Notes under the pieces: generated by a model
The model's database searches: none
Told to the model about the DNA's origin: nothing
The model's input: only the letters and a program-made list of their open reading frames with translations
Made by a program: the position numbers and the translations under genes
Shown here: positions 5,790-32,831 of the stretch, in pieces
Numbering within the stretch: the stretch's first letter is position 1
Layout of the letters: each line of letters starts with the position of its first letter
From: Streptomyces sp. CC228A
GTDB lineage: Bacteria; Actinomycetota; Actinomycetes; Streptomycetales; Streptomycetaceae
Assembly (NCBI RefSeq): GCF_021390935.1
Contig: NZ_JAJPUI010000010.1
Location: 62,001-126,000, forward strand
DNA: 64,000 bases
Direction: 5' to 3'

Positions 5790-6154
5790 GACCCGGCACG
5801 CGCGGGCATCCCGCGCCCGCAGGGCCTGCGGCGGGCGCAGGCTGCACGGCGGGCGCAGGGTCCCCGGGGCGTCCGCGGGCCCGGGCGCCCGCGGGTCCTC
5901 GGCGACACAGGACACGGCCGCCACAGGGCCCGGCGGCCAAGGACGCGGCCGCCGCGGGCCGAGTGACCGCATAACAGGGCGATTTCGGGACCCGCGGCCG
6001 CCGCAACCGGAACGGAACAAACCACTTCCCCGGTTTTCCATCCGGCTTCGAGTGGCGTGGCCCACTGTTGCACGGTGACAGAAGATCGGCCGTGCCCTCA
6101 CGCAGCGTCCGTGGCACAGGCCGTCGGGGAGTCGAGACCGGGGGGTCCAGGACC
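5790..6154 (+). other. Intergenic, ECF sigma upstream region
   Basis: No gene seen. The first 150 bases are GC-rich with short GCGGGCGCAGG-type repeats. From about 5965 the composition drops and there are GGAAC-type boxes (around 6010) and an ACAAACCACTTCC stretch, possible ECF promoter elements for the sigma gene. An in-frame TTG at 6068 could extend the sigma protein by 29 residues. Confidence 0.4.
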
Positions 6155-6733
6155 GTGGAGCAACGGCTGCCGAGCGCCGCGGCGCAGCGCGAGGAGACGC
6201 GCCGCGCGGAGGCGTTCGCCGCGTACGTACTGCCCGAGGTGGAGGTGCTGCTGAGGGTCGCGATGACGCTGACCTCCCAGCAGGCCGACGCCGAGGACCT
6301 GGTCCAGGAGACCCTGCTGCGCGCCTACAAGGCGGTGGACAGGTTCGACGGGCGGCACCCGCGCGCCTGGCTGCTGACCATCATGCGGCGGGCCGAGATC
6401 AACCGGCACCGGCGCAGAAGACCGCACCTGCTGGACCGGGAAGGCGACCTGGAGCGCCTGACGGCGGCCTCCGGGGACACGGAGCCGTCGCCGGAGTCCC
6501 TGGTGGTCGGCGACCTGTTCGACGAGGTCGTGGACGCGGCGATGGACGCCCTGCCGCCCGCGCACCAGCAGGTCTTACGGCTCGTCGACATCGACGGCCT
6601 GTCCTACGCGGAGACCGCCCGGCTGCTGGGCGTACCGGAGGGGACCGTGATGAGCAGACTGCACCGGGCGCGCAAGCGGATCCGCGTGCGCCTGGCGGCC
6701 GCCGGGCTCGTACCGGGGCGGGGCGGGCGGTGA
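6155..6733 (+). CDS. ECF-family RNA polymerase sigma factor (contains TTA codon)
   Basis: Sigma-70 family ECF protein, 192 aa from the GTG at 6155, which follows a G6 stretch. Region 2 has DAEDLVQETLLRAYKAVDRF and PRAWLLTIMRRAEINRHRR; region 4 has LPPAHQQVLRLVDIDGLSYA then PEGTVMSRLHRARKRI. Codon 6575-6577 (Leu of QQVLRL) is TTA, so in a Streptomyces background translation would depend on the bldA tRNA. The next gene starts inside its stop codon (GTGA) and encodes a zinc-finger protein, the normal sigma/anti-sigma arrangement. A TTG start at 6068 is possible. It probably controls itself and perhaps the arsenic locus just downstream. Confidence 0.88.
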   Translation: MEQRLPSAAAQREETRRAEAFAAYVLPEVEVLLRVAMTLTSQQADAEDLVQETLLRAYKAVDRFDGRHPRAWLLTIMRRAEINRHRRRRPHLLDREGDLERLTAASGDTEPSPESLVVGDLFDEVVDAAMDALPPAHQQVLRLVDIDGLSYAETARLLGVPEGTVMSRLHRARKRIRVRLAAAGLVPGRGGR

Positions 6734-7038
6734 GGTCCATGCGTACCGTGCGGGTGCTGCGGGCGGTACGGATGCTGCTGCGGCGCGCCGGGCCCGACCG
6801 GCCGATGGACTGCGCTCAGGTGGGCCGCGTGCTGCAGGCGCACCTGGACGGCGAGACCGGCGGGGGCACCGCGCAGCGCGTGGCCGCGCACCTGGAGCAG
6901 TGCCGCCACTGCGGCCTGGAGGCGCGGACGTACCAGGCGATCAAAGGGGCCCTGACCCGGCGCCGGGAGCCCGACCCGGACGCGCTGCGACGGCTGCGGC
7001 ATTTCGGGGAGTCGCTGCTGCGGCCCGACGAGGGCTGA
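6730..7038 (+). CDS. Zinc-finger (zf-HC2/ZAS) anti-sigma factor
   Basis: A 102-aa soluble protein with the HxxxCxxC zinc signature HLEQCRHCG (about residues 56-64) preceded by the typical VLQAHLDGE helix. It lacks a membrane segment, so it would be a cytoplasmic ZAS-type anti-sigma factor. Its GTG start overlaps the sigma stop codon, giving translational coupling. It presumably binds the ECF sigma factor upstream. Confidence 0.82.
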   Translation: MRSMRTVRVLRAVRMLLRRAGPDRPMDCAQVGRVLQAHLDGETGGGTAQRVAAHLEQCRHCGLEARTYQAIKGALTRRREPDPDALRRLRHFGESLLRPDEG

Positions 7039-7834: not shown

Positions 7835-8956
7835 TCAGCAGCAGGCGGCCGCGCCCTGACCCGGCGCCGAGGACGCACCGGCCGCCGTCGCGGGGCCGCA
7901 CGGAAACGGGCCGAAGTGGGTGGACTTGTCCCCTGTGACGGTGAAGTGGGGCGCGTAGCGGGTCGCGGAGAGCATGTCCGCCGTGTTCCCGCAGACCAGC
8001 AGGGGCTTCCCGGTCGGGAAGTGGTGGTGGTCGTCGAGGTCGAAGGCGTGCGGGTGCTCCGGCAGGGTCCCCCGGTAGACCGCCACCTGCCCGTAGTCCT
8101 CGCAGAGGTCCTCCAGCGGCAACTTGAAGGCGCGCACCGTGCGCGAGGTGAACGTGGCGAAACCGATCTCCCGCGCCACCTCGGGGTCGGTCAGCTCCAC
8201 CGGCGACTCCGCCACCGTACGGGCGTCCGCGCAGCCGGCCCGGTCCAGCACGCGGCGGAAGTCCTCGGTGTAGAGGGCGCCGGCGAGGCACTCCCCCACC
8301 AGGACGGGGTTGTCCAGCAGGCCGGCGGGCAGCCGGCGGTCGGCGAAGATGTCGGAGACGTACATCTCGCCGCCTTCCCTGAGCACCCGGAAGATCTCGG
8401 CGAGGACCCGCGGCTTGTCCGGGGACAGGTTGAGCACGCAGTTGGAGACGACCAGGTCCACGGACCCGTCCTCGATGCCGGCGGCGGCGAGGTCCTCGAT
8501 GTAGCCCTGGCGGAACTCCACGTTCGCGTAGCCGAACTCCTCGGCGTGCCAGTCGGCGTGGCGGCGGGCCACGGCCAGCTGCTCGTCCGTCATGTCGACG
8601 CCGATCACCCGGCCCGTCGGCCCGACCAGCTGGGCCAGGACGTACACGTCGCGGCCGCTGCCGCAGCCGAGGTCCAGGACCGTGGCGCCCTCCAGGGCCG
8701 GGGGGATGGGGGAACCGCAGCCGTAGTAGCGGTCCTTGACCTCCTCGTGTACGCGATTGAGGGCGGCGGCGATGTGCGGCGGAGGAGCGGTCGCCGTGCA
8801 GCAGGCGGTGGTCTTCAGGTCGGCGGAGGACGCCAGCACCTTGCCGTAGTAGTCCTTGACGGCCTCTGCCACCTGCGACGGCCCGGGCTGCCCGGGCTGC
8901 TCGGACTGCTGGGACTGCTGGGACTGGCCTGGCTGCTGGGTCACTTCGGTCGTCAT
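7835..8956 (-). CDS. arsM: Arsenite S-adenosylmethionine methyltransferase
   Basis: A 373-aa As(III) methyltransferase. SAM motif I is VLDLGCGSGRDVYVL (about residues 90-105). The conserved ArsM cysteines are in place: TTACCT (about 50), NCVLNLSP (about 170) and GECLAGALY (about 215), the arsenite-binding set. The C-terminal domain ends with a CC pair (AAACC). The start ATG at 8956 has GAGGAAGAGG in front. The product would be mono-, di- or trimethylarsenicals in the cytoplasm. Upstream (9010-9025) is a 16-bp motif also found before the second methyltransferase. It is convergent with the sigma/anti-sigma genes. In arsenosugar pathways ArsM acts first, giving dimethylarsenite. Confidence 0.93.
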   Translation of the reverse strand: MTTEVTQQPGQSQQSQQSEQPGQPGPSQVAEAVKDYYGKVLASSADLKTTACCTATAPPPHIAAALNRVHEEVKDRYYGCGSPIPPALEGATVLDLGCGSGRDVYVLAQLVGPTGRVIGVDMTDEQLAVARRHADWHAEEFGYANVEFRQGYIEDLAAAGIEDGSVDLVVSNCVLNLSPDKPRVLAEIFRVLREGGEMYVSDIFADRRLPAGLLDNPVLVGECLAGALYTEDFRRVLDRAGCADARTVAESPVELTDPEVAREIGFATFTSRTVRAFKLPLEDLCEDYGQVAVYRGTLPEHPHAFDLDDHHHFPTGKPLLVCGNTADMLSATRYAPHFTVTGDKSTHFGPFPCGPATAAGASSAPGQGAAACC

Positions 8957-9258
8957 GCCTCTTCCTCACGTCGTCAGTCGCCCGCGCCCGTACGCACCGA
9001 GCGGGCCGTGCGTCGGGAACCCGGCGACCCGCCGCCCACCTTCCCGCCGCCCGCCCTTCCTGCCCTTGCCTTCCCGTCCCCGCCTTCCGGGTCTCCCGGC
9101 CCGGCCCGTGACTCCGCCGCCATCCGCCGCGACGCCTCACCCGAGCCGTCGGGCCGTGGAGCGGTGGAGCCGTCGAGCTGTCGAGCTGTCGAGCCGTGGA
9201 GCGGTGGGGCCGTGGGGCCGTGGGCGCCGCAGTGCCGAATGGACTGGAGAAGACCTGG
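8957..9258 (-). other. arsM upstream region
   Basis: No gene. Contains the shared cis motif at 9010-9025 (listed separately) and, at about 9155-9230, a run of 9-bp repeats of the type GTCGAGCTG / GTGGAGCGG. The arsM promoter is expected here; no clear -35/-10 pair was seen. Confidence 0.5.
9010..9025 (-). promoter_or_regulatory. Shared 16-bp cis motif upstream of arsM
   Basis: Plus-strand GCGTCGGGAACCCGGC, identical to 11164-11179 (before the second methyltransferase). Read in the direction of arsM it is GCCGGGTTCCCGACGC, 54 bases before the start codon. It could be an ECF promoter element or a repressor operator. Confidence 0.5.
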
Positions 9259-10182
9259 TCAACGCCCCCGCTGCTCGACGGTCTTCGCGCCCTCCCTCTT
9301 CGCCGCCCTCCCGTAGCGGCGGGCAGCCCAGCCGCCGCCGACGCTCAGCACCACCAAGGCGCCGATGGCCGCCCACAGCATCGGGGAGCCGGGCTGACGC
9401 AGGGCGCCGCCCAGGCCGACCAGGGTGAGCGTGCCCGGCACGATGCCGAGCGCGGTGGCCGTCACGAACGGCAGGAAGCGCACCCCGGACACGCCCGCAC
9501 CATAGTTGACGAGGTTGAAGGGGAACAGCGGCACCAGCCGCATGACCAGTACGGCCAGGAAGCCGCGCCGTGCGAGGAAGTCGTCCAGCCGGGCCAGCCG
9601 CCCCGTTCCCGCGTACCGTTCGACGGCCGGGCGGCCCAGCCGGCGGCCGATACCGAACGACAGGGACGCGCCGGCGGTCGCCCCCACCAGGACGGCCGCC
9701 GCGCCCACCGGCACGCCGAACAGCGCGCCCGCGGTCGCGGACAGCACCGCGCCGGGCAGCAGCCCGGTCACCGCCAGCGCGTAGCACAGGGCGAAGACGA
9801 AGGGGGCCCAGGCGCCGAGTGCGTCGACCCGTTCGCCGACGCCGGCCAGCAGCCGGGCCCCGTCCAGGGCGGCCCACGCCGCCAGGCCGCCGAGCAGCAC
9901 GGCGAACGCCAGCAGCCGCAGCAGGGGGCCCCGCGGCCGCCCCGCCCCGCCGCGCCGGGCTCGGCCCGCGACGGTGCCGTCGGCGCCGGTGCTTCCGGCA
10001 CCGGTGCGGGGGCCGTGCCGTCGCCGGTCGTGCCATCGGTGCCGGTGCCCGTGTCCGGGGCGTGCGGGTCGTGCGGGGCATGGGGTGCGTGGGGGTCGTG
10101 GGGGTCGGCGCTGCGCGGGCTGCCGGTGCCGCCGGTGTCGGTGTCCGTGCCGGTTCCAGGGATCATGCGGGTCCGTCCTCAC
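9259..10182 (-). CDS. TVP38/TMEM64 (DedA/SNARE-associated) family membrane protein
   Basis: A polytopic membrane protein. The family core runs from about residue 125 to 290 and includes GLLPGAVLSATAGALFG, the conserved FxxRxxPLFPFNLVNYGAG-type stretch (VLVMRLVPLFPFNLVNYGAG) and a final helix ALVVLSVGGGWAA. The start is unresolved. The frame opens with GTG at 10182, but its first about 75 codons have poor third-position GC. An overlapping frame starting with ATG at 10166 has much better codon use there (Asp/Thr/Gly/Pro-rich), implying a frame shift near 9930-9965 in a G5C4 tract. TVP38 proteins recur in arsenosugar loci. A transport or membrane-homeostasis role is inferred. Confidence 0.75.
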   Translation of the reverse strand: MRTDPHDPWNRHGHRHRRHRQPAQRRPPRPPRTPCPARPARPGHGHRHRWHDRRRHGPRTGAGSTGADGTVAGRARRGGAGRPRGPLLRLLAFAVLLGGLAAWAALDGARLLAGVGERVDALGAWAPFVFALCYALAVTGLLPGAVLSATAGALFGVPVGAAAVLVGATAGASLSFGIGRRLGRPAVERYAGTGRLARLDDFLARRGFLAVLVMRLVPLFPFNLVNYGAGVSGVRFLPFVTATALGIVPGTLTLVGLGGALRQPGSPMLWAAIGALVVLSVGGGWAARRYGRAAKREGAKTVEQRGR

Positions 10183-10378
10183 GGCTGCGGGCGGCGCCCG
10201 GCCGGGGCGCGGTGCCTGGTGGTGTGTGGGGCCAGTCGGGGCGCGGTGCCAGGTGGTGGGTGGGCCGGTCGGGGCGCGGGGCCCGTAGGTCGGTGGGCCG
10301 GTCGGTGTGGTGCCGGGTGCGGTACGGGGCCGGGCGGACCGCGGGGCGTTCAGCGGTGACGGGTGCGGGCGCCGGCCG

Positions 10379-11137
10379 TCACGGTGCGGTGGGTACGGCG
10401 ACGACCCGCCGCAGCGGGAGTTCCAGTCGGCGCCCGGGGCGCGCCCAGGCGGCGAGGGCGCGTCCGGCCGACGCGGTGCGCTCCGGCGGGACGCCGGGCA
10501 GGTACAGCCCCTCGACCAGCAGCGACACCGCGGCGGGCGTCTCCAGGGCGAGGCGGAACACCCGGCGCTCGTCGGAGCGGACCGTGAAGCCCGCCCCGCG
10601 CAGGACCCCGGCCAGTCCGTCCCGTGCCTGCGGGTTCGGCCACGGCTGGCGGACGGCGCGCAGCGCGCCCATCACCCGCGCCCATCCGAGCAGCCCGCGC
10701 GGGGACAGCCCGGAGCCGGACGGCACCAGCGCGGCCAGCACCCCGCCGGGGCGCAGCACCCGCCGTGCCTCGCTCAGCACCCGCGGCAGGGGCGTGAGCA
10801 CCGGGAGGCACATCGCGGCGCACACCGCTCCCGCTGTGGCCGCGCCGAAGGGCAGGGCGTCGGCCCCGGCCCGGACCAGCGGGCCCCGGCCGCGCCGGGC
10901 GGCCTCCGCGAGCTCCCCCGCGGAGAGGTCCACTCCGACCCAGTCGGCACCGGCCAGTTCCGCGCGGGTGGGTGCCGATCCGCACGCCAGGTCCAGCACG
11001 GGGCCCGGCACGGTCCGCAGGGGCTCGGCCAGCCACGCGTACGGGGACGTCTCGGCCAGCCCGAGCAGCCGCTCGGTGATGCCGGGACGCGCGTCGTGGT
11101 AGGCGCTCACGTACCGGCGCCAGGACCGTTCGTCCAT
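10379..11137 (-). CDS. Class I SAM-dependent methyltransferase
   Basis: A protein of about 252 aa with SAM motif I GPVLDLACGSAPTRAEL, then GVDLSAGEL, ALPFGAATAGAV and VLRPGGVLAALVPSG. The start is the ATG (MDERSW) preceded by GGAAGGAGG; a GTG 15 codons upstream is less likely. It lies between the TVP38 gene and the divergent MerA-like gene, and has the 16-bp motif shared with arsM 27 bases upstream of its start. The substrate is unknown. Given the context, methylation of an arsenical or of a sugar/carboxyl group is possible. Confidence 0.8.
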   Translation of the reverse strand: MDERSWRRYVSAYHDARPGITERLLGLAETSPYAWLAEPLRTVPGPVLDLACGSAPTRAELAGADWVGVDLSAGELAEAARRGRGPLVRAGADALPFGAATAGAVCAAMCLPVLTPLPRVLSEARRVLRPGGVLAALVPSGSGLSPRGLLGWARVMGALRAVRQPWPNPQARDGLAGVLRGAGFTVRSDERRVFRLALETPAAVSLLVEGLYLPGVPPERTASAGRALAAWARPGRRLELPLRRVVAVPTAP

Positions 11138-11163
11138 CACGGCCGCCTCCTTCCGTCCTGACC

Positions 11164-11179
11164 GCGTCGGGAACCCGGC
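11164..11179 (-). promoter_or_regulatory. Shared 16-bp cis motif upstream of second methyltransferase
   Basis: GCGTCGGGAACCCGGC, identical to 9010-9025 upstream of arsM. It forms the left arm of a 14-bp inverted repeat with 11193-11206. Confidence 0.5.
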
Positions 11180-11555
11180 CACCCTGCCTCATGCCGGGTT
11201 CCCGACCCGTGCTACCCCGCGCCGGGAACCCGGCCGGTGCACCCGGTCATTCCCGCCGGGGCCCTCGTTCCCGTCCCTGCCCCCGTTCCCTCCACGCCCT
11301 CCACCCCGTCCCTGCCCCCGTTCCCTCCACGCCCGCGTTCCCGTTCCTGCCCCGTACGTCTCCCGCGGCCCGGCCGCAGCATGCACCGCCCGCACGCGAG
11401 GAACCCGGCCACACACGGCACAGAAGGCGCGCGAGGCCACAGAGGGCACGCGAGGGCGCCGAAGGCACGCGGGCACGGGAGGCAGGCGTGGAAAGGGGGG
11501 CACACGAGGAAGGGGGGATGGGAAGAGGAGGAGAAGGGAAGGCGCCACGGGGCAT

Positions 11556-11571
11556 GGCGGGTTTCCGACGC
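11556..11571 (+). promoter_or_regulatory. Shared cis motif upstream of MerA-like gene
   Basis: GGCGGGTTTCCGACGC, 14 of 16 bases identical to the transcription-oriented arsM motif GCCGGGTTCCCGACGC, 70 bases upstream of the ATG at 11642. Confidence 0.45.
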
Positions 11572-11641
11572 AGCAGGGAGCCGGAGAGCAGGACACAGCA
11601 CCACCGAGCGGGCCCAAGCGGCGGAATGAGGGAATCCACCC

Positions 11642-13063
11642 ATGAGCAGTGCACGCGCGTACGACCTCGTGGTCATCGGGGGCGGCAGCGCCGGCCTGAC
11701 GGCCGCCCGCACCGCGGGCCGTTTCGGCGCCCGCACCCTGCTGGTGGAGCGCGACCGGCTGGGCGGCGACTGCCTGTGGACCGGCTGCGTGCCCAGCAAG
11801 GCGCTGCTGCACGTGGCCGCCGAGGTGCACGCGGCCCGCGGGGTCGACCGCTACGGGCTCGCCGCGCCCGCCGGCCCCGCCGACCTGGCCGCCGTGATGC
11901 GGGACGTCAAGGGCGCCATCGCGGCCATCGAGCCGCACGACTCGCCCGAGGCCCTGCGGCCGTTCGGCGTGGAGGTGGCGTACGGCCCGGCCGTCTTCAC
12001 CGGCCCCCGCACGCTGTCGGTCGGCGAGCGGCGGGTCTCCTTCCGGTACGCGCTGGTCGCGACCGGTTCCGCGCCCGCCCTCGCCCCGGTGCCGGGTCTC
12101 GCCGAGGCCGCGCCGCTGACCAGTGACTCCGTGTGGGACCTGGAGCGGCTGCCGGAGCGGCTCGCGGTGCTGGGCGGCGGCCCCATCGGCTGCGAGCTGG
12201 CGCAGGCCCTCGGCCGGCTCGGGTCCCGGGTGACGCTCGTCGAGGCGCAGGACCGGCTGCTGCCCCGCGAGGAACCCGACGCCTCCCGGGTCGTACGGGA
12301 ACGGCTGGAGGCCGAGGGGGTGACCGTCCTGACCGGGTACCAGGTGGAGAAGGTCGCCGACGGCGCCCTGCACGGCCCCGGCGGCGAGACCGTCCCGTAC
12401 GACGCGCTCCTCGCGGTCACCGGGCGCCGCCCCCGCACGGACGGCCTGGACCCGGCGGCGGCCGGGGTGGAGGTGGACGGCCGCGGCCACATCCGCGTCG
12501 ACGACCGGCTGCGCACCACCAACCCCCGGGTGTTCGCGGCCGGGGACGTGACCGGCACGTCGGCGTTCACGCACCTGGGCGGCGTCCAGGGCGGCACCGC
12601 CGCCACCAACGCGCTGCTCGGGCCGGTGCGCCGCATCGACCACCGGGCGGTCCCGTGGGTGACGTACACCGACCCGGAGGTGGCCCGCGTCGGGCTGACC
12701 GCCGACGAGGGCCGCGCGGCGCACGGCGACCGGGTGCGGGTCCGCACGCTGCGGCACGACCGCGTGGACCGGGCCGTCGCCGACGGCCGCACCGAGGGCT
12801 TCACCACCCTGGTGCTCGACCCGCGGGGCCGCGTCGTCGGAGCGACCGTGGTGGCACCGCGCGCCGGGGAGACCATCGCGCACCTGGCGACCGCGGTAAG
12901 GCTCGGCTGGACGGCGTCGCGGTACGCGGGGACCGTCCACCCGTACCCGACGTACGCCGACGGGCCGTGGCACGCCGCGATCCTCGACGTGCACCAGCGG
13001 CTGGCCCGGCACAGCCGGGTCATCGGCGGCCTCGTCGGGCTGCGGCGGCGGGTGCGCCCGTGA
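11642..13063 (+). CDS. MerA/dihydrolipoamide-dehydrogenase-like pyridine nucleotide-disulfide oxidoreductase
   Basis: A 473-aa FAD enzyme with the N-terminal dinucleotide motif VIGGGSAGLTAA, the redox-active disulfide GDCLWTGCVPSKALL (two Cys), the NAD(P)H motif VLGGGPIGCELAQALG, the FAD motif VFAAGDVTGTSAF, and a dimerisation domain with the active HPYPTY motif. It lacks the N-terminal HMA domain and the C-terminal Cys pair of true mercuric reductase, so mercury reduction is not indicated. FAD-containing reductases of this type occur in arsenosugar loci. Reduction of an arsenical or its thiol carrier is inferred. ATG 11642 directly follows the control region. Confidence 0.87.
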   Translation: MSSARAYDLVVIGGGSAGLTAARTAGRFGARTLLVERDRLGGDCLWTGCVPSKALLHVAAEVHAARGVDRYGLAAPAGPADLAAVMRDVKGAIAAIEPHDSPEALRPFGVEVAYGPAVFTGPRTLSVGERRVSFRYALVATGSAPALAPVPGLAEAAPLTSDSVWDLERLPERLAVLGGGPIGCELAQALGRLGSRVTLVEAQDRLLPREEPDASRVVRERLEAEGVTVLTGYQVEKVADGALHGPGGETVPYDALLAVTGRRPRTDGLDPAAAGVEVDGRGHIRVDDRLRTTNPRVFAAGDVTGTSAFTHLGGVQGGTAATNALLGPVRRIDHRAVPWVTYTDPEVARVGLTADEGRAAHGDRVRVRTLRHDRVDRAVADGRTEGFTTLVLDPRGRVVGATVVAPRAGETIAHLATAVRLGWTASRYAGTVHPYPTYADGPWHAAILDVHQRLARHSRVIGGLVGLRRRVRP

Positions 13064-13220
13064 CCGGGGAGGTCCGCCCTCCGCGGGGGCGGCCGGGCCC
13101 GCCCGGACGGGGACGCGCCCGGCGGACGCGTACGGGCGCGGGCCCTCGGCGGACGCGTACGGGCGCGGGGCGCGCGGCGCCCGCATCAGTAGCAGGCACG
13201 GCACAAGGGGAGGAACCCAC
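13064..13220 (+). repeat. Short spacer with a 21-bp direct repeat
   Basis: The two copies at 13121-13141 and 13148-13168 share GGCGGACGCGTACGGGCGCG. The phosphorylase RBS (GGGGAGGAA) is at its end. No gene. Confidence 0.5.
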
Positions 13221-14009
13221 ATGCGCATCGGTGTCATCACCGGCTCGGGCAGCTATGCCTGGCCCCACCTGGACGACGCGTCCGACGAGACGGTCGGCAC
13301 GGAGTACGGCGACGTGCCCGTCACCCGGGGGCGGCTCAAGGGGACCGAGATCGTGCAGCTGTCCCGGCACGGCGCACAGCACCACCGCCTGTCCCACCAG
13401 GTCGACCACAAGGCCAACCTCGCGGCCCTGCGCGCCTGTTCCGTGGACGGCGTGATCTCGCTGACGGTGTGCGGGGCGGCTGACGCGGGCGCCGCGCCCG
13501 GCTCGCTCGTGGTCTTCGACGACCTGTACTTCCCGTCGAACAGGCTGCCCGACGGCTCGCCGTGCACGTGGTTCACGGCGCCCGGCGAGGCCGGCCGGGG
13601 GCACTGGATCTTCGACAGGCCCTTCAGCGAGCCGCTGCGGCGCGCCCTGCTCGCCGGCGCGGAGGGCCTCGGCGTGCCCGTCCTGGCGGGCGGGGTGTAC
13701 GGGCACGTCGACGGGCCCCGGTTCAACACGCGCAGCGAGATCGCGGCACTGGCGGCCGCCGGGGTCACGGCGGTCAGCCAGACCGCGGGCCCGGAAGTCG
13801 TCCTGGCGGGGGAGGCGGAACTCCCCCTGGCCCTCGTCGGCTTCGTCACCGACTACGCCAACGGCGTGGCCCCCGAACCGGAGCCGGTGGAAGCGCTGCT
13901 GGAGCGCATGGCCGCCAGCAAGGGCGTCTTCGCGGAGCTCGTGGGGCGGGCGGTGTCGGGGCTGGAGGCGGTGGAACCGGCCGGATTCGTCTACCGGTTC
14001 GGGTCATGA
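13221..14009 (+). CDS. 5'-methylthioadenosine/purine nucleoside phosphorylase family protein
   Basis: A 262-aa family-2 nucleoside phosphorylase. Visible signatures are the phosphate loop IGVITGSGSY, SRHGAQHHRLSHQVDHKAN (RHGxxH...N.RAN-type), GGVYGHVDGPRFNTRSEI and FVTDYANGV. The Asp in TDY corresponds to the adenine-selecting residue of MTA phosphorylases, although the second Asp of TDYD is Ala. In this neighbourhood a 5'-arsenical adenosine, formally an MTA analogue, is a plausible substrate, giving adenine and an arsenosugar 1-phosphate. That is inference. The glycosyltransferase ATG overlaps its stop (ATGA). Confidence 0.85.
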   Translation: MRIGVITGSGSYAWPHLDDASDETVGTEYGDVPVTRGRLKGTEIVQLSRHGAQHHRLSHQVDHKANLAALRACSVDGVISLTVCGAADAGAAPGSLVVFDDLYFPSNRLPDGSPCTWFTAPGEAGRGHWIFDRPFSEPLRRALLAGAEGLGVPVLAGGVYGHVDGPRFNTRSEIAALAAAGVTAVSQTAGPEVVLAGEAELPLALVGFVTDYANGVAPEPEPVEALLERMAASKGVFAELVGRAVSGLEAVEPAGFVYRFGS

Positions 14010-14839
14010 GCGGCCCGCACCGCGAGAAGTCCGGAAACGGCTCGGGGCCCGCGCCCGCGGCCCCGCTGCCGACCGTGTCGATCGTCGTGCCGGTGCTGAA
14101 CGAGGAGGACACGATCGTGGCGGCGGTGCGCCGGCTGCGGCGCGACTTCCCCGGCTGCGAGCTCGTCGTGGTCGACGGCGGGTCCACGGACGCGACCGCG
14201 GAACTGGCCGCGCCGCACGCCACCCTCGTACGCAGCGAGCGGGGCAGGGCCCGGCAGATGAACGCCGGCGCCCGGCACTGCACCGGGGACGTGCTCTGGT
14301 TCGTCCACGTCGACACGGAGATCGCGCCCGCCGCGCTGGACCAGATCCGCACGGCGATGTCCGACCCGCGGGTGGTGGGCGGCGGGCTGACCCTGCGCTT
14401 CGACCGCCGCAGCCCTGGCCTGGACTACCTCGCGTACACGTCCAACGCGCGCGCCCGGCACCTGCGGCACATCTTCGGCGACCAGGCCATGTTCGTCCGG
14501 CGCGGCGTCTTCGACGAGCTCGGCGGCTTCCCGGACCTGGCCATCATGGAGGACCTGGAGATGTCCCGCCGCCTCGACCGGCGCGGCCGGCTGGCGCTGC
14601 TGCCCGCCACGTCCACGGCGTCGGCGCGGCGCCTCGTCGCGCACGGCGTGTGGCGGATGACCGTGTTCATGCAGTACCTGAAGGTGCTGTACTTCGCGGG
14701 CGTCGACCCGGAACGCATCGGCCGGCGCTACGCGGCGGGCCCGCCCCGCCTCCTGCGGCGCCGCCCGCCACGCCGCCCGGACGGCGGGCGGAACCGGCGC
14801 CTCCCACGTGCCGTGCCGGCGGACCGGCCGCGGCCCTGA
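14006..14839 (+). CDS. Arsenosugar-type family 2 glycosyltransferase
   Basis: A 277-aa GT-A glycosyltransferase: VSIVVPVLNEEDTI, the DXD-like area VVVDGGSTDAT, then GRARQMNAGARHCTGDVLWF and VHVDTEI, GDQAMFVRRGVF and MEDLEMSRRL. This pattern, notably GRARQMNAGA, matches the small glycosyltransferase family (TIGR04283) named from arsenosugar gene neighbourhoods. It overlaps the phosphorylase stop by four bases, so the two are co-translated. It probably attaches or rearranges a sugar or aglycone on the arsenical. The last about 35 residues are Arg/Pro-rich. Confidence 0.83.
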   Translation: MSGPHREKSGNGSGPAPAAPLPTVSIVVPVLNEEDTIVAAVRRLRRDFPGCELVVVDGGSTDATAELAAPHATLVRSERGRARQMNAGARHCTGDVLWFVHVDTEIAPAALDQIRTAMSDPRVVGGGLTLRFDRRSPGLDYLAYTSNARARHLRHIFGDQAMFVRRGVFDELGGFPDLAIMEDLEMSRRLDRRGRLALLPATSTASARRLVAHGVWRMTVFMQYLKVLYFAGVDPERIGRRYAAGPPRLLRRRPPRRPDGGRNRRLPRAVPADRPRP

Positions 14840-15263
14840 CCCCGTGCCGGCGGACCGGCCGCGGCTCTGCCGCCGCGGCGGCGGACGGCTGCGGCACTGC
14901 TCCCGTGGCGGCGGGCGGCCGCGGTTCGACGGCCGCCCGGGCTCGCGCGTACGGCCGCCGGCTCCGGTCCGCGGCCCGGACGGCGATGCGGGCCCCGGCC
15001 CACGGGCGCCGCGGGCTCGGGTCCCGCCGCCCCCGCGCCGCCCCGGTCCGCCCCGCGCCGCGCCTCCGTCCTCCGCACTCCTCCGTCCATGGCCCGCCTC
15101 AGCCCGCACCGCGGCCTGACCGCACCGCCACAGGTCGCGGCCGGGCCGGCACCGCCCCCCAGCCCGTCCGGCACCGCCCCCCCAACCCGTCCGGCACCGC
15201 CCCCGACCCGTCCGGCACCACCACCGGAACACGCCCCTTCCGTACACCCTTTGGAGACAGCTC
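14840..15263 (+). other. Intergenic spacer before the phosphoesterase-radical SAM gene
   Basis: About 420 GC-rich bases without a gene. It contains near repeats GTGCCGGCGGACCGGCCGCGG (14812 and 14843 areas) and CCCGTCCGGCACCGCCCCC units (15165-15220). The next gene has a good GGAG ribosome site just before 15264. Confidence 0.4.
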
Positions 15264-16940
15264 ATGCGGATCGCAGTATGCGGCGGCCCCTACGGCAACC
15301 CGTACGCCCTCCGGGCCTTCGTGGACGACGCCCGCGCCCGCGGCGCCCAGCGCCTCTACTGCCTGGGCGACCTGGGCGGCTTCGGCGCGGAGGTGGACGC
15401 CCTGTGGCCGATCCTCACCGGCGCCGACGTCACCTGCGTGGCGGGCAACTACGACGTGGCCGTCGCCCGCGGCGACACGGACTGCGGCTGCGGCTACCGC
15501 GACCCGAAGGACAACGAGTTCGCCCAGCTCATCTACGACCACACGCTGGCCACCACCAGCCGCGACTTCGCCGCCTGGATGGGGGCGCTGCCCACCGAGC
15601 GCCGGGAGACCCTCGGCGGGGTCGACGTGCACATGGTGCACGGGTCCACCCTCGCCCTGAACGACTTCTGGTGGGAGTCGCTGCCGGAGGAGCAGCACCG
15701 GCTGCGGGCGGCGGCCTCCGGCGCCGGCGTCGTCCTGTGCACCCACAGCGGGCTGCCCTGGCAGAAGCGGGTCGACGACACCCTCGTCGTGAACGTCGGA
15801 GTGCTCGGCAAGCCGGCCAACGACGGGAAGCGGAACGTCTGGTACGCGCTGCTCGACCTCGACGAGGGGCGCGCCGAGGCGGAACTCGTCCCCCTGGACT
15901 ACGACTGGCGGGCGCAGGCCGCCTCCATGCGGGCCGCGGGGCTGCCCGAGGTGTTCGTCGAGACCATCGAGACCGGCTGGTGGACCACCTGCCTGGAGGT
16001 GCTGCCGCCGGCGGAGCGCTCCCGCGGCCGCTACCACCTCTACCGCTCCACGCTGCCCACCGGCTTCCGCCCCGCCGACGACGGCTGGGGCTCCGCGCCG
16101 GGCGCGGACCTCTCGGAGGACCGGCCGGTCGTGCCGCTCTTCGGCAGCGCGTACTTCCCGTCCCGCCTGTGGCTCTACACCAACTTCCACTGCAACCTGG
16201 CCTGCGACTACTGCGCCGTCGCCTCGTCCCCCAAGGCGGCGCCGCGCGTGCTGACGGCGGACCACTTCCGCGGGCTCGTCGACGAGGCGGTCGCCGCGGG
16301 CTTCGCCGAGCTGTACGTGACGGGGGGCGAGCCCTTCCTGCACCCGGACATCGTGGCCCTGCTCGACTACGCCTCCGCGCAGCTCCCCACGGTCGTCATG
16401 ACCAACGCCATGCTGCTGCGCGGCCGCAGGGCGCAGGGACTGGGGGACCTCGCCGGGCGCAAGCTGACCGTGCAGACCTCGCTGGACGGGGCCACGGCCG
16501 CCACCCACGACCGGCACCGCGGCGCGGGCTCCTGGCAGCGCACCGTCGCCGGTATCCGCCACCTGATCGACCTGGGGCTGCCGCCGCGGGTCGCGCTCAC
16601 CGAGACGCCCGAGAACACCGCGGAGGTCCCCGCGACCGCTGCCCTGCTGGCCGGGCTCGGACTGCCGGAGGACCACTTCGCGGTGCGGCCGCTGCTGCGG
16701 CGCGGGTTCGCCGAGACCGGCGTGGAGATCGGCGAGGACACGTCCGTGCCCGAGCTGACGGTGAGCGGGGACGGCCTGCACTGGCACCCCGCGGGCGCCG
16801 ACACGGCCACCAGCCCGGACATGCACCTGGCGCCCGCGGGCACACCGCTGGAGCGGGGCAAGCAGCTCGTCACCGAACGGTTCTTCGCGGCCCGCCTGGC
16901 GGACGGCAGCCTCCCCCGCCCGGTCCACTGCGCCATCTGA
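15264..16940 (+). CDS. Metallophosphoesterase-radical SAM fusion protein
   Basis: A 558-aa two-domain protein. Residues 1 to about 235 form a calcineurin-like metallophosphoesterase (CLGDLGGFG, VAGNYD, MVHGS, CTHSG, NVGVLGKP, supplying the metal Asp/Asn/His ligands). Residues about 300-558 form a radical SAM domain with the [4Fe-4S] motif CNLACDYC (CxxxCxxC), the SAM-binding YVTGGEPFLHPD and the strand TVQTSLDGATAATHDRHRG. It ends in a single Cys (VHCAI). It lies where an ArsS-type radical SAM enzyme would be expected. The inferred role is 5'-deoxyadenosylation of dimethylarsenite, with the phosphatase half acting on the sugar phosphate released later. The fusion architecture is unusual. Confidence 0.85.
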   Translation: MRIAVCGGPYGNPYALRAFVDDARARGAQRLYCLGDLGGFGAEVDALWPILTGADVTCVAGNYDVAVARGDTDCGCGYRDPKDNEFAQLIYDHTLATTSRDFAAWMGALPTERRETLGGVDVHMVHGSTLALNDFWWESLPEEQHRLRAAASGAGVVLCTHSGLPWQKRVDDTLVVNVGVLGKPANDGKRNVWYALLDLDEGRAEAELVPLDYDWRAQAASMRAAGLPEVFVETIETGWWTTCLEVLPPAERSRGRYHLYRSTLPTGFRPADDGWGSAPGADLSEDRPVVPLFGSAYFPSRLWLYTNFHCNLACDYCAVASSPKAAPRVLTADHFRGLVDEAVAAGFAELYVTGGEPFLHPDIVALLDYASAQLPTVVMTNAMLLRGRRAQGLGDLAGRKLTVQTSLDGATAATHDRHRGAGSWQRTVAGIRHLIDLGLPPRVALTETPENTAEVPATAALLAGLGLPEDHFAVRPLLRRGFAETGVEIGEDTSVPELTVSGDGLHWHPAGADTATSPDMHLAPAGTPLERGKQLVTERFFAARLADGSLPRPVHCAI

Positions 16941-16965
16941 CCACTGCGCCATCTGACCACTGCCC
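16926..16965 (+). repeat. 16-bp tandem duplication across the stop codon
   Basis: CACTGCGCCATCTGAC is repeated back to back over the end of the phosphoesterase-radical SAM gene (the stop is in the first copy), with a partial third copy. The following 200 bases to the flavoprotein are GC-rich with GCAGAACC triplications and no gene. Confidence 0.5.
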
Positions 16966-17180
16966 CAACTGCCGCCCGCCCCTGACGCGGCCCTGTCCCC
17001 GGCCCCGGCCCCACCCCGGCTCCGTCCGACGCCCGGCCGCACCACCGCACCGCACCACCACGCGGCGCCGCACCGCACCGCACCGCACCGCCCCGAGCAG
17101 CGCCCCCAGCGCACCACCGCACCACTGCAGAGCCGCAGAACCGCAGAACCGCAGAACCGCAACCGAAAGGCCCCACGCCC

Positions 17181-18455
17181 ATGCCGCAAGCCACTTCCGC
17201 GCCCGCGACAGCCTCCGCGCCCGCCTCCGCCGCCCGCGGGCCCGCCGCGGGCGGCGTCCCGCACGTCGCGATCGTCGGCGCCGGACCCGTCGGCCTCGAC
17301 GCGGCGCTGGCCTGCGCCGACGCCGGCTGGCCGTTCACCGTGTACGAGGCCGCGGACGGCCCGGCCGCGCACGTCGGCGCCTGGGGGCACGTCCGCCTGT
17401 TCACCCCGTGGGATCTGAACGTGTCACCCCGGATGCGCGCCCACCTCGCCGACGCGCCGCGCGGGGGCGACTGCCCGACGGGCGCCGAACTCGTCGCCCG
17501 GCTCCTGCGGCCCGTCGCCGAACTGCCCGTGCTGCGGGACCGGATCCGCTACCGGACCCGTGTCGCCGGGATCGCCCGCGCCGGCCTGCTCAAGCACGAG
17601 CACATCGGCACCCCCACCCGGGCGGGCGCGCCGTTCACGCTGCTGCTGGACACCCCGCACGGCGAGGAGAGCGCCGCGGCGACCCTCGTCCTCGACTGCA
17701 GCGGCACCTACGCCCACCCGAACACGCTCGGGGACGGCGGCATCCCCGCGCCCGGCGAGCGGTCCCTCGGCCACCGCATCACCCGCACCATCCCCGACAC
17801 CGCCGACCCGTCCCGCTGGGCGGGCACCGTCCTGCTGGTGGGCGCCGGCAAGTCCGCGCAGACCGCCGCCCGCGACCTCGCCGCGCTCCCCGGCACCCGG
17901 CTCGTCTGGGCGGTGCGCAACCCGGCGCCCGACTGGGGCGAGGTCCCCGACGACACGCTGCCCGCCCGGCAGGGCCTCGTCGACGCGTCCCGTGCGCTCG
18001 CGGGAGGCGGCCTTGAGCGCGTCACGGTCCACACGGGCGCCCGGGTGGCGTCCCTGAAGGCGTCGCAGGACGGCCGGGTGACGGCGGTCCTGGACACCGG
18101 CGCCGGGCCCCGGGAGGTGGCGGCCGACCACGTCGTCTCCCTCACCGGTTACACCGGCGACCCGGTGCTCCACCGCCAGCTCCAGGTCCACGAGTGCTAC
18201 GCGACGGGCGCCCCCATGGCCCTGTCGGCGGCGCTCCTGTCCGCGGGGGGCGCGGGTGCCGACTGCCTCGCCCAGCCGGCCGCCGGCATCGACCAGTTGC
18301 GCAGTCCGGAACCGCACTTCTTCGTGCTGGGCGCCAAGTCGTACGGCCGCCTCAACACCTTCCTGCTGCGCAGCGGTTACGAGCAGGTCGACGAGGTCGC
18401 CGGTGCGTACGCCGCGCAGCCCGGCGCCGCCGCGCGGTCCGGTACGGACGGGTAG
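17181..18455 (+). CDS. FAD-dependent oxidoreductase (flavin monooxygenase-like)
   Basis: A 424-aa flavoprotein. After an Ala/Pro-rich leader of about 27 residues it has VAIVGAGPVGLDAALACADA, then TVYEAADGPAAHVGAW. A second nucleotide-binding motif, VLLVGAGKSAQTAARDLA, is placed as in FMO/Trx-reductase-like enzymes, followed by VVSLTGYTGD and FFVLGAKSYGRLNTFLL. The order and spacing fit a two-dinucleotide-binding-domain monooxygenase. Last gene of the plus-strand arsenic set. Oxidation of the arsenosugar (for example aldehyde to acid, or As(III) to As(V)) is a guess from context. Confidence 0.8.
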   Translation: MPQATSAPATASAPASAARGPAAGGVPHVAIVGAGPVGLDAALACADAGWPFTVYEAADGPAAHVGAWGHVRLFTPWDLNVSPRMRAHLADAPRGGDCPTGAELVARLLRPVAELPVLRDRIRYRTRVAGIARAGLLKHEHIGTPTRAGAPFTLLLDTPHGEESAAATLVLDCSGTYAHPNTLGDGGIPAPGERSLGHRITRTIPDTADPSRWAGTVLLVGAGKSAQTAARDLAALPGTRLVWAVRNPAPDWGEVPDDTLPARQGLVDASRALAGGGLERVTVHTGARVASLKASQDGRVTAVLDTGAGPREVAADHVVSLTGYTGDPVLHRQLQVHECYATGAPMALSAALLSAGGAGADCLAQPAAGIDQLRSPEPHFFVLGAKSYGRLNTFLLRSGYEQVDEVAGAYAAQPGAAARSGTDG

Positions 18456-18563: not shown

Positions 18564-19403
18564 TCACCGGCTGCCGTGCAGGGTGGTTGCGTGGGCGGCG
18601 CCCCGGGTGGAGGCGTTGCGGGGCGGGGCGCTCCGGGCGGGCCCCGCCGCCGCGGCGCGCGGCGTCCCGTGCGGCGGACCGGCAGGCGGGGACAGCGGCG
18701 GGGACGGCGGCACCGCGGGGGACTTGGCGGCGGGCCGCACGTCGGCCAGGCTCTGCTGCGGGGTGATGACCCCGTCGGTGCCCGCCGGGTCGAGGCGTTC
18801 CAGTTCCTCCGGGGTCGCCAGCCGGGGCAGCAGCAGCTGCCAGAAGCCGGTCACCGAGTACCGGGACAGCCACTCCTGGTTGCGCCGCCCCAGCACCTCG
18901 AAGCCGATGGTCGCGGCGACCACGGCGGCGGCCATGTCCCCGCGGTTCACGCCCGCCGCGAGGCTGCCCTCACCGGCTGCCTCGGCCAGCATCTGCTGGA
19001 CGAACTGCTGCCACTCGCGGCGCAGGTCCACCTCGCCGGTGCGGGTGGTGTCGCAGCTGAGCCGGAAGCCGGCCCGGGTGACGGCGTCCCGGCGCAGCAG
19101 GTGCGCCAGGGCGTGCGAGGCGTCCGTCAGCGCCTGCAGGGCGGGGCTGACGGCGCGCCCCCCGCGTGCTCCTCGCCGCACTCCGCGGTAGGCGGCGCGC
19201 AGGGCGCGGGACGCCTCGGTCTCCACGGCCGCGGCGACGGCCGCCTTGTTCTCGAAGTGGAAATGGAGGGCCCCCGTGCTGACCCCGGCCCCTGTGGAGA
19301 TCAGTGCGAGCCTCGCCTGGGCGTAGCCATACTCCTCGAACACCGCGGCAGCCGACTTGATCAGGGCACGGCGGGTGCGCTCGGCCCGTTCCTGCTTGCT
19401 CAA
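18564..19403 (-). CDS. Gamma-butyrolactone-receptor-like TetR regulator
   Basis: A 279-aa ScbR/ArpA/JadR2-type repressor. Its N-terminus, QERAERTRRALIKSAAAVFE, and helix-turn-helix region, LALISTGAGVSTGALHFHFE, are diagnostic for the receptor family. The ligand domain ends near GRRNQEWLSRYSVTGFWQL, and a Pro/Ala-rich tail of about 75 residues follows. An ARE-like palindrome (19507-19526) lies 100 bases upstream, suggesting autoregulation. A second one covers the promoter of the next gene, an OmpR-type regulator. The pairing resembles jadR2/jadR1 of S. venezuelae. Whether it binds a butyrolactone or is a pseudo-receptor cannot be told. Confidence 0.88.
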   Translation of the reverse strand: MSKQERAERTRRALIKSAAAVFEEYGYAQARLALISTGAGVSTGALHFHFENKAAVAAAVETEASRALRAAYRGVRRGARGGRAVSPALQALTDASHALAHLLRRDAVTRAGFRLSCDTTRTGEVDLRREWQQFVQQMLAEAAGEGSLAAGVNRGDMAAAVVAATIGFEVLGRRNQEWLSRYSVTGFWQLLLPRLATPEELERLDPAGTDGVITPQQSLADVRPAAKSPAVPPSPPLSPPAGPPHGTPRAAAAGPARSAPPRNASTRGAAHATTLHGSR

Positions 19404-29210: not shown

Positions 29211-29981
29211 ATGCCTGCAAATCCTTCGACCCTCTCCCGCCAGGGCTGGGACCGCTGGAATCTCGGTACGGAATTCGGTATCGACGAGACGGACAGCGAC
29301 TACCGCGCGCTCCGGGCCGCGTACGACGACCTCCCGGAAGATCCGTACGCGACCGGCTCCGGCCGGTACCGGCGCTACGCCCGAGGTGTCTTCCTGCCGT
29401 GGTCCAGGGAATTCTTCTGGATGCCGGCCACGGAGAGCCAGGCCCGGGAGGGCATGAACGGCTACTACCAGGGCGACAACAATCCCGAGTACGTGAACGT
29501 CACGCGGAACCTGCCGGCCATCAGCGAGGAGATCTGCGGCAACAAGCTCCTGCTGGACATGATCCAGTTCGACTTCTCGCAGACCCGCTGGAGTGAGGAC
29601 GACGCGGTCTGGCCGCTCTACGTCGGCGTCCACCTGATCAAGCTGCACATCGAGGAGGACGGCCGGGAGGCCGTCTCGTCCCCGAACGAACTGCACCAGG
29701 ACGGCGAGCCCTACGTCTTCGCCCACCTGATCTACCGGGACAACGCCGAGGGCGGCGCCAACCTCATCGCCACCCCCGAGTACCGGGGCAAGCAGCCGGA
29801 GGACGTCCCGCCGGCGGACCGCCTCGCCGAGTTCCAGATGGAGAACCCCCTCGAGGCGTACGCCATCACCGACCACCTCGTCAGCCACTACGTCGGCCCG
29901 ATCCGCAAGGGCGGCGCCGACCGGCCCGGCGAGCGGGCCATCCTGCTGGCCGACTGGGTCCCGATGCGCCACCGCATCTGA
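29211..29981 (+). CDS. 2-oxoglutarate/Fe(II) dioxygenase (PF10014-type amino acid hydroxylase)
   Basis: A 256-aa protein. The iron ligands appear in ELHQDGEPYVFAHLIYRDN (HxD) and in the distal ITDHLVSHYVGPI; the C-terminus is ILLADWVPMRHRI. The pattern NARNLPAIS-type (NVTRNLPAISEEI) and QFDFSQT fits the 2OG-Fe_Oxy_2 family, which includes free L-isoleucine and other amino acid hydroxylases. First gene of the plus-strand operon, with GGGGGAG before its ATG. It probably hydroxylates the amino acid that is then loaded by the ligase downstream or used by the NRPS. Confidence 0.85.
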   Translation: MPANPSTLSRQGWDRWNLGTEFGIDETDSDYRALRAAYDDLPEDPYATGSGRYRRYARGVFLPWSREFFWMPATESQAREGMNGYYQGDNNPEYVNVTRNLPAISEEICGNKLLLDMIQFDFSQTRWSEDDAVWPLYVGVHLIKLHIEEDGREAVSSPNELHQDGEPYVFAHLIYRDNAEGGANLIATPEYRGKQPEDVPPADRLAEFQMENPLEAYAITDHLVSHYVGPIRKGGADRPGERAILLADWVPMRHRI

Positions 29982-29992
29982 GAGGGCGGCAC

Positions 29993-31081: not shown

Positions 31082-31125
31082 CCCGGCCGCACACCGCCAC
31101 CGTACCCACAGAGGGAAAGAGTTCC

Positions 31126-31377
31126 ATGGAAGACCTGAAGACGGTCGTCGACGACCTGCTGCAGCAGCTCGCGCAGGCGCGGGACGTGCCGGCCGACGCG
31201 GAGCCGTCGCAGATCATCGTCAGCTCGCTCGACCAGATGCGCTTCCTCGTCGGGCTTGAGGAGCGGCTGGACGCCATGCTCGACGTCGGCGACGTGCTGC
31301 CCTTCGACCTGTCCGACCGCGAGGCGCTGCTCAAGAGCGTCCACGAGCTGCTAGAGGAATCCGGAGTGACCCTGTGA
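31126..31377 (+). CDS. Carrier protein for the aa:CP ligase
   Basis: An 83-aa acidic four-helix protein (MEDLKTVVDDLLQQLAQARD). The likely attachment serine is S34 in IVSSLDQMRFL, an SSL variant of the usual DSL. It differs clearly from the type II ACP at 28607 and resembles the small carrier proteins encoded next to synthetase-like ligases. GAGGGAAAG ribosome site before ATG 31126. It presumably holds the aminoacyl group for the BtrH-like transferase or the NRPS condensation domain. Confidence 0.82.
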   Translation: MEDLKTVVDDLLQQLAQARDVPADAEPSQIIVSSLDQMRFLVGLEERLDAMLDVGDVLPFDLSDREALLKSVHELLEESGVTL

Positions 31378-31405
31378 CCTCCGGCCCCGCCGGCGGTGAC
31401 GGGCG

Positions 31406-32812: not shown

Positions 32813-32831
32813 CCCGTCCCCCACAGAGAGT

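Follow-up and report, generated by a model that had tools for sequence, protein, structure and literature searches.

Background

Only two radical SAM (S-adenosylmethionine) routes to carbon-arsenic bonds have been described, that of ArsS and that of ArsL, and ArsS is treated as an arsenic enzyme, in the part of the source consulted (PMC12159101). Here we analyse a locus at positions 7835-18455 of a 64,000-nucleotide stretch of the Streptomyces sp. CC228A genome, henceforth the window (G000:C2:62001-126000 in our numbering; assembly of 6.86 Mb, 94.6% complete), and all positions given for it are those of the window. A sequence-only reading of this DNA had proposed an arsenosugar-like locus, and the genes it named (ArsM, a TVP38 protein, a second methyltransferase, a MerA-like reductase, an enzyme resembling methylthioadenosine phosphorylase (MTAP), a glycosyltransferase, a radical SAM fusion and a flavoprotein) were all found in place. 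Judging from gene families and gene neighbourhoods, we consider it probable that the locus encodes a stress-inducible pathway of the arsenosugar type, in which a fusion of a phosphoesterase-type and a radical SAM domain stands in for ArsS. The literature searched, from which most subscription journals were missing, yielded neither an account of such a cluster nor a paper combining arsenosugar, phosphorylase and methylthioadenosine.

The fusion protein and its partners

The radical SAM component had been described as a fusion and not a typical ArsS, and this proved correct. It is a protein of 558 amino acids encoded in one open reading frame (15264..16940, + strand), in which a degenerate metallophosphoesterase-type domain (residues 1-245) is followed by a radical SAM domain (residues 290-550) with the motif CxxxCxxC (C310, C314, C317). 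Against the ArsS profile TIGR04167 it reaches 48.6 bits (cut-off 300), covering just profile positions 10-147 of 303. The match to PF04055 (65.1 bits) and the three cysteines, invariant in 48/48 homologues, place it in the radical SAM superfamily, and the closest curated family to its C-terminal domain is the Rv1681 family NF049973, with 267.7 bits over residues 299-556, under the cut-off of 380. In an AlphaFold2 model built on 48 homologues (mean predicted local distance difference test score, pLDDT, 85.0; predicted template modelling score, pTM, 0.69), residues 290-550 resemble SkfB (Z 22.2, root-mean-square deviation (rmsd) 2.9 over 244 residues) and BlsE (Z 19.7).

The N-terminal part passes the Pfam threshold for Metallophos_2 over residues 1-201 (47 bits, cut-off 27), and the folds nearest to residues 1-245 of the model by Z are phosphoesterases of the Ap4A hydrolase type (2gju, Z 25.8; 3qfm, Z 24.2). 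On examination of the catalytic motifs, however, the motif I D-x-H and the GHTH ligands were not found intact: motif I has become G8-x-Y10 (in 48/48 and 47/48 homologues, respectively), and GHTH reads T/S-H-S/T-G with the second histidine gone, while D36, N62, H126 and H161 are retained. The structures 2gju and 1nnw do not have the same motif in the alignment. An active phosphatase was rejected on these motifs, although the nearest folds are phosphoesterases. Dephosphorylation, which the sequence-only reading had included in the pathway, is therefore an unlikely role for this domain, given that the metal ligands of motif I are replaced in 48/48 homologues. Four cysteines of the protein (C74, C76, C159 and C243) are invariant, and C556 near the C-terminus is present in 47/48. 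We infer that the domain lost one metal site and gained a thiolate site; it more probably binds a substrate or a metal than acts as a phosphatase, and C74, C76 and C159 may, at a guess, lie close together in the fold.

The glycosyltransferase gene (14006..14839, +) encodes a family 2 enzyme of the TIGR04283 'arsenosugar biosynthesis' family, and the pattern GRARQMNAGA pointed out earlier is indeed there, at residue 80. A profile search had been proposed for both TIGR04283 and ArsM, and the two proteins fared differently. The glycosyltransferase passed its model (226.2 bits, cut-off 182), but ArsM (arsenite S-adenosylmethionine methyltransferase; 7835..8956, -) stayed under both curated NCBIfam cut-offs, with 200.3 bits for NF008823 arsenite methyltransferase (cut-off 263) and 108 for NF038099 arsenosugar ArsM (cut-off 400), though it aligns nearly full-length (residues 13-371, 410.8 bits) to 5evj, the solved arsenite methyltransferase from Chlamydomonas. 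A second solved ArsM, 4fr0, is matched with 313 bits, and the conserved cysteines noticed earlier, C52/C53, C80, C173 and C223, stand in ArsM contexts.

Relation to ArsS loci

ArsS above the cut-off was found neither in the window's own genome, nor in 34 fusion genomes tried (from those behind the 80 loci described below), nor in 296 genomes of the window's class, in searches in which a limited number of first-look candidates was scored per genome and a Synechococcus elongatus control genome was positive each time. A canonical arsenosugar locus would hold ArsS and TIGR04283 together; here TIGR04283 is present and ArsS is absent from the locus and the genome. In the other classes of the phylum, ArsS over the cut-off occurs in 8 of 396 genomes as ten copies, and all ten neighbourhoods were examined. 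Six of them (L130-L133, L140 and L144; loci are cited by our own numbers) carry a TIGR04283-type gene, ArsS and an MTAP-like gene consecutively, and the three glycosyltransferases of such triads that were scanned all pass TIGR04283 (240.8, 226.5 and 271.7 bits). It was also observed that the dedicated MTAP-like gene directly follows ArsS in these six copies, as a candidate for the removal of adenine.

The phosphorylase of the window (13221..14009, +) belongs to this ArsS-locus subfamily, and the MTAP-like step proposed earlier is supported. It reaches 148.8 bits against TIGR01694 (cut-off 274.85), compared with 295.7 for a separate housekeeping MTAP in the same genome, and is 43-47% identical to the phosphorylases of the ArsS loci L130-L133. 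Common to the 12 fusion-locus and the ArsS-locus phosphorylases are, among others, the motifs FDD[LI]Y[FY]..NRLP, GPRFN, SQ[TS][AC]GPE and D[YF]ANG, the last of which reads DHANA in L033 alone, and the signature is carried by the phosphorylases of L140 and L144 too; the housekeeping MTAP has GPRFS, GMTGHPE and TDLDAG at these places. A tree of 18 phosphorylases (12 fusion-locus, 4 ArsS-locus and 2 generic; a generic fragment, L106, was excluded) split the 16 locus enzymes from the two generic ones at 100/100. The comparison points to a missing step after ArsS, as a dedicated phosphorylase stands beside ArsS in 6/10 copies and in 27/47 fusion loci, and adenine removal is therefore directly testable.

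One ArsS copy bears on the N-terminal domain. L142 (6894-8906, +) encodes a protein of 670 amino acids whose residues 370-667 are an ArsS (357.3 bits, cut-off 300), with DUF3641 at residues 529-666, and whose N-terminal part aligns with the N-domain of the fusion (hhalign probability 97.3, 220 columns, 27% identity; BLASTP against the fusion extends over 490 residues with E 7e-14). It shares with the fusion the altered start GG-x-YGNP, and has C-G-C where the fusion has C74/C76; for C159 there is no counterpart, and a cysteine is found four residues on, at the place of G163. The general phosphoesterase model matches this N-domain weakly (18.5 bits, under the cut-off of 27), and the fused domain was seen in this one of the ten ArsS copies. 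These alignments link the N-domain of the window's protein to an ArsS, but make no such link for its radical SAM domain. Since ArsS was not found, the TIGR04283 and phosphorylase neighbours are the same, and one ArsS has the same N-domain, the fusion probably does the job of ArsS.

Conservation of the locus in relatives

With the fusion as query, a single scan against named genomes gave 135 relatives, of which the best 80 were kept; by title these loci are mostly from Actinobacteria, and they are not independent, as several genomes yield two or more. Three contigs (L042, L049, L071) come from one metagenome-assembled genome (MAG) labelled Acidobacteriota (G314, isolate REEB343), which the taxonomy places in the window's phylum; the title is probably wrong, because sampling around G314 and sampling the window's phylum gave the same four genomes with ArsS. 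Gene presence was scored by tblastn at >=60 bits (at least 60 bits), and the 47 of the 80 loci with at least 7 kb upstream and at least 5 kb downstream of the fusion were regarded as well-flanked.

In these 47 loci the neighbours most often found were TIGR04283 (42), a second radical SAM family termed rSAM2 (39), a MerA-like reductase (37, which is not a count of true MerA, because a 'MerA' match can be the MerA-like reductase itself), TIGR04282 (31), the flavoprotein (31) and MTAP (27). ArsM or an ArsM-like protein followed with 21, the second methyltransferase MT2 with 20, an ECF (extracytoplasmic function) sigma factor with 17, TVP38 with 16, DUF427 with 15, a major facilitator superfamily (MFS) protein with 14 and an anti-sigma factor with 13. 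As the same set recurs in relatives, the gene set is not a matter of chance. The expected co-conservation of ArsM, radical SAM and glycosyltransferase genes stood for the last two (42/47) and failed in part for ArsM, which is retained in just 18 of those 42. Surroundings of ten stand-alone relatives of the fusion's radical SAM domain, of Rv1681 type, unlike those of the fusion, lacked any TIGR04283-like match of at least 60 bits (0/10).

The fusion is rare: among 296 sampled genomes of the class it is whole only in the window's own (G000), its N-terminal part occurs in G016, and the other 15 genomes with a match have the radical SAM part only. No second copy was reported in the window's genome, where 4 of 28 first-look candidates were scored, and a plasmid collection held no full fusion and one stand-alone radical SAM match. 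Its closest relative, 96% identical, lies on a contig of Streptomyces sp. CC53 (L004). The ratio of nonsynonymous to synonymous substitution rates (dN/dS) against L004 is 0.11 for ArsM, 0.24 for the reductase, 0.10 for MTAP, 0.31 for the glycosyltransferase and 0.14 for the fusion, so these five genes of the window look retained by purifying selection, even without rSAM2. The locus of a Pseudonocardia MAG (L072) has an ArsP-type permease (15558-17006, -; PF03773, 201 bits) and an ArsM-like protein beside the fusion.

Regulation

Next to the locus, and beyond what had been noticed earlier, lie an ECF sigma factor and a zinc-finger protein. The sigma factor (6068..6733, +; Sigma70_r2/r4_2; TIGR02937, 107.9 bits, cut-off 42.9) has TTG as its listed start, the true start probably lying further downstream, and the zf-HC2 protein (6730..7038, +; 33.7 bits, cut-off 22.2) is a probable anti-sigma factor. 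Two promoter-like elements GGAA[GT]-N17/18-GGTTCCC, equivalent to GGGAACC-N17/18-[AC]TTCC on the other strand, were also found in the window against 0.02 expected, one (9015..9044, -) 59 bp 5' of the ArsM start codon and the other (11224..11253, -) preceding MT2. Across 1.32 Mb of the 80 loci there are 75 sites against 0.4 expected from first-order Markov sequences (5 runs), a post hoc count, as the element was noticed in these same loci; with those of the window, 59 of 77 sites point at the start of a cluster gene (-60 to 200 bases), and the other 18 point at none.

In SigR promoters the -35 box is GGAAT and the -10 box GTTG, as given in the part of the source consulted (PMC5005934), and in the cluster element GGAA[GT]...GGTTCCC both GGAAT and GGAAG occur. 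On this comparison the adjoining ECF sigma factor would be the natural candidate regulator, and the pair probably switches the genes on from putative SigR-like promoters under thiol or metalloid stress.

A stress regulator beside the Streptomyces loci would also suit ordinary arsenic methylation and detoxification, with ArsM acting alone among general stress genes and no sugar-linked product. According to the part of the source consulted (PMC12159101), simple methylated arsenicals had long been the only ones known from actinomycetes, until bisenarsan. Such an explanation leaves aside that the phosphorylase, TIGR04283 and the fusion are conserved together, that the reading frames of MTAP and the glycosyltransferase share 4 bases (14006-14009), and that a dedicated MTAP paralogue is kept besides the housekeeping one; we regard it as very improbable.

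Genes missing from the window and points against the reading

When fusion loci are counted whatever their length, 66 contain TIGR04283, and 52 of these also contain the family rSAM2 (radical SAM proteins of ~470 amino acids, e.g. L069:8482-9900, -). Two members score 26.9 and 29.6 bits, barely enough, against the general Radical_SAM model, and no curated family matched beyond a very weak match to TrsS. A model of the protein (mean pLDDT 84.7) is nearest to the tetraether-lipid synthase GDGT-MAS, a carbon-carbon bond-forming enzyme (7tol, Z 22.9, rmsd 3.7 over 315 residues; Z falls to 14.0 for the best match to any other enzyme). All 27 aligned members have C56, C66, C70, C73, C296 and C428, and 26 have C444. 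At the window's locus tblastn found neither rSAM2 nor TIGR04282, absences that had not been remarked on before. Elsewhere in the window's genome rSAM2 had no match, a comparable search being positive in 7 of 12 relatives, and this absence is not certain as the assembly is 94.6% complete; for TIGR04282 there is one paralogue-like match elsewhere in the genome (121.5 bits, under the cut-off of 134).

These genes raise the alternative that rSAM2 and not the fusion is the arsenic adenosyltransferase, the window's locus being decayed or partial and giving only methylarsenicals or an intermediate. The presence of rSAM2 with the fusion in 39/47 well-flanked loci, its additional invariant cysteines C56, C296 and C428, which fit an auxiliary cluster, and its closest fold all speak for it. 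So does the finding that, of four genomes tested whose TIGR04283 locus is without rSAM2, three (L004, L029, L063) have it outside the visible stretch, elsewhere in the genome. In the fourth (L072), as in the window's genome, no rSAM2 was found, and the L072 locus still has TIGR04283, TIGR04282, TVP38 and the flavoprotein; the window's genes are moreover under purifying selection, and it is the N-domain of the fusion, not rSAM2, that a true ArsS shares. On balance we hold this alternative to be unlikely.

Several observations weigh against an arsenosugar pathway with the fusion in the place of ArsS. As rSAM2 and the locus TIGR04282 are missing, the window's copy may be incomplete. ArsS (48.6 bits) is more distant from the radical SAM domain of the fusion than are the Rv1681 family and several peptide maturases, and the full triad is missing in four of the ten ArsS copies: a weak TIGR04283-like gene and a TIGR04282-like gene flank ArsS without MTAP on one contig of 7.2 kb (L145), and neither accompanies the three copies of one genome (L141-L143). 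ArsM or an ArsM-like gene is within reach in just 21 of the 47 loci, and among 25 fusion genomes picked for an ArsM-less locus 11 had no match and 14 had one (E <=1e-20), only 3 of them close (77-80%). Mercury genes adjoin several loci. Finally, in five of the 47 loci (L043, L046, L050, L052, L074) the fusion stands without TIGR04283, MTAP and rSAM2, and it therefore works in another context too. In three of these (L043, L052, L074) its neighbours are instead an ArsM-like protein and a transporter of the PhnD/PhnE type.

It was separately observed that a phosphonate-type ABC transporter (PhnD/PhnE-like) adjoins the fusion, with no glycosyltransferase match, in L043, L044, L045, L048, L052, L054 and L074. 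This neighbourhood is a second context for the same fusion enzyme.

The absence of ArsM from many relatives and the mercury genes, together with SelL-like genes in 8/47 loci and mycoredoxin in 6/47, could also mean that the core module acts on another thiophilic substrate or on a sulphur or selenium nucleoside, arsenic being incidental and ArsM an add-on of Streptomyces; the synthesis of methylthio sugars in mycobacteria would be a comparable scheme. Distance from ArsM proves little, since ArsM adjoins just one of the ten ArsS copies (L143, 56% identity). The window's ArsM lies under the same promoter element as other genes, and the MTAP subfamily and the N-domain are common to ArsS genes, ArsS being an arsenic enzyme in the portion of the source seen (PMC12159101). 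A non-arsenic substrate thus strikes us as distinctly doubtful, and the arsenosugar-type pathway remains the reading we prefer.

Other genes of the locus and the window

ArsM, TVP38 and MT2 are encoded on the - strand, and the MerA-like reductase, MTAP, glycosyltransferase, fusion and flavoprotein on the + strand. The TVP38/TMEM64 (VTT-domain) membrane protein (9259..10182, -) matches PF09335 with 91.8 bits. MT2, the second class I methyltransferase (10379..11137, -; Methyltransf_11, 52 bits), is taken to start with the ATG at 11137, the longest open reading frame extending to 11182. The MerA-like FAD/pyridine nucleotide-disulphide oxidoreductase (11642..13063, +) scores 363.9 bits, under the MerA cut-off of 454.45. 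For the flavoprotein (FAD/NAD-binding; 17181..18455, +), which has weak DAO/Pyr_redox matches, no close characterised family and no useful solved relative was found.

A ScbR-type autoregulator-binding regulator (18564-19403, -; NF041196, 170.7 bits, cut-off 150) adjoins the arsenic locus; it has no homologue within the 80 fusion loci and was therefore excluded from the parts of the cluster. Further along, positions 29211-40029 hold a small non-ribosomal peptide-like set, comprising a 2OG-Fe dioxygenase, a MatE transporter, an ATP-grasp protein and a protein of 1883 amino acids with condensation, adenylation, carrier and thioesterase domains, and positions 51460-53001 (+) encode a protein with DUF6851 and a helical-bundle domain of the vanadium chloroperoxidase type.

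Proposed pathway

The order suggested by the gene families would be ArsM, adenosylation, phosphorolysis, activation and glycosyl transfer. ArsM, whose family and cysteines are clear, would methylate As(III) in the organism. The radical SAM domain of the fusion may then link a 5'-deoxyadenosyl group to a trivalent dimethylarsenical, as suggested by its neighbours TIGR04283 and the phosphorylase, by the failure to find ArsS and by the one ArsS with the same kind of N-domain. The dedicated MTAP paralogue, by its family and the signature common to ArsS loci, would remove adenine by phosphorolysis to give an arseno-ribose 1-phosphate. In relatives the CofC-like TIGR04282 protein could activate this sugar phosphate, a step that some other enzyme would take over in the present organism, and TIGR04283 would make the riboside. 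Phosphorolysis yields an alpha sugar phosphate and family 2 transferases invert, so a beta-riboside would result, which is the form in natural arsenosugars. As a guess, the MerA-like reductase and the flavoprotein may set the redox state of the arsenic, and TVP38 may serve at the membrane.

A wider proposal is more speculative, and we put it forward tentatively, as a possibility that could well prove wrong. In it ArsS and ArsL would be joined by the fusion as one more family of radical SAM enzymes that form arsenic-carbon bonds. The degenerate N-domain would be an arsenic(III)-binding module met twice in evolution, with a true ArsS in one class and with an Rv1681-like domain in actinomycetes, and together with rSAM2 the fusion could lead to a lipid- or glycoside-linked arsenical unlike the known arsenosugars. 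If the fusion forms the carbon-arsenic bond, this reaction gains a new enzyme family. If ArsS is indeed replaced by a radical SAM domain of an unrelated family, in a class in which the 296 genomes sampled yielded no ArsS, the chemistry of sugar-linked arsenic would have arisen anew and would extend to soil actinomycetes.

Comparison with known systems

The locus is closest to the ArsM/ArsS pathway (TIGR04167, TIGR04283, TIGR04282), with which it shares a TIGR04283 gene accompanied by a gene for a radical SAM protein and by one for a phosphorylase from the same subfamily (as in 6/10 ArsS copies), a TVP38 protein (present in the ArsS locus L130) and, in one ArsS, the N-domain of the fusion. It differs in having an Rv1681-like domain instead of the ArsS radical SAM domain and DUF3641, and in the additional MerA-like reductase, flavoprotein, MT2 and ECF regulation, with rSAM2 in the loci of 39/47 relatives. 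The Rv1681 family, which we take to be the one named MoeX, is the closest curated family to the C-terminal domain, yet the fusion stays below its cut-off.

The arsinothricin genes arsQML of Burkholderia gladioli likewise combine ArsM with a radical SAM enzyme that makes a C-As bond; in the part of that source consulted, their ArsL transfers a 3-amino-3-carboxypropyl group, and the cluster is one of three genes, with no MTAP or glycosyltransferase (PMC8552651). Against the profile of the arsinothricin-cluster ArsM, the window's ArsM scores 164.8 (cut-off 500). The bisenarsan pathway bsn of Streptomyces lividans is another streptomycete organoarsenical pathway, but it is described, in the portion available, as having no SAM-dependent enzymes and as needing an EPSP-synthase homologue and polyketide synthase genes (PMC12159101). 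Neither an EPSP-synthase homologue nor a polyketide synthase was seen among the ten proteins scanned.

The methylthioxylose capping of mycobacterial lipoarabinomannan, which is linked to MTAP, is alike in producing a glycoside of a 5-deoxy-5-methylthio sugar; to our knowledge it has no radical SAM step. Its transferases are MtxS Rv0539 and MtxT Rv0541c, as named in the part of the source consulted (PMC8780516). That system carries sulphur, whereas the locus described here is proposed to carry arsenic.

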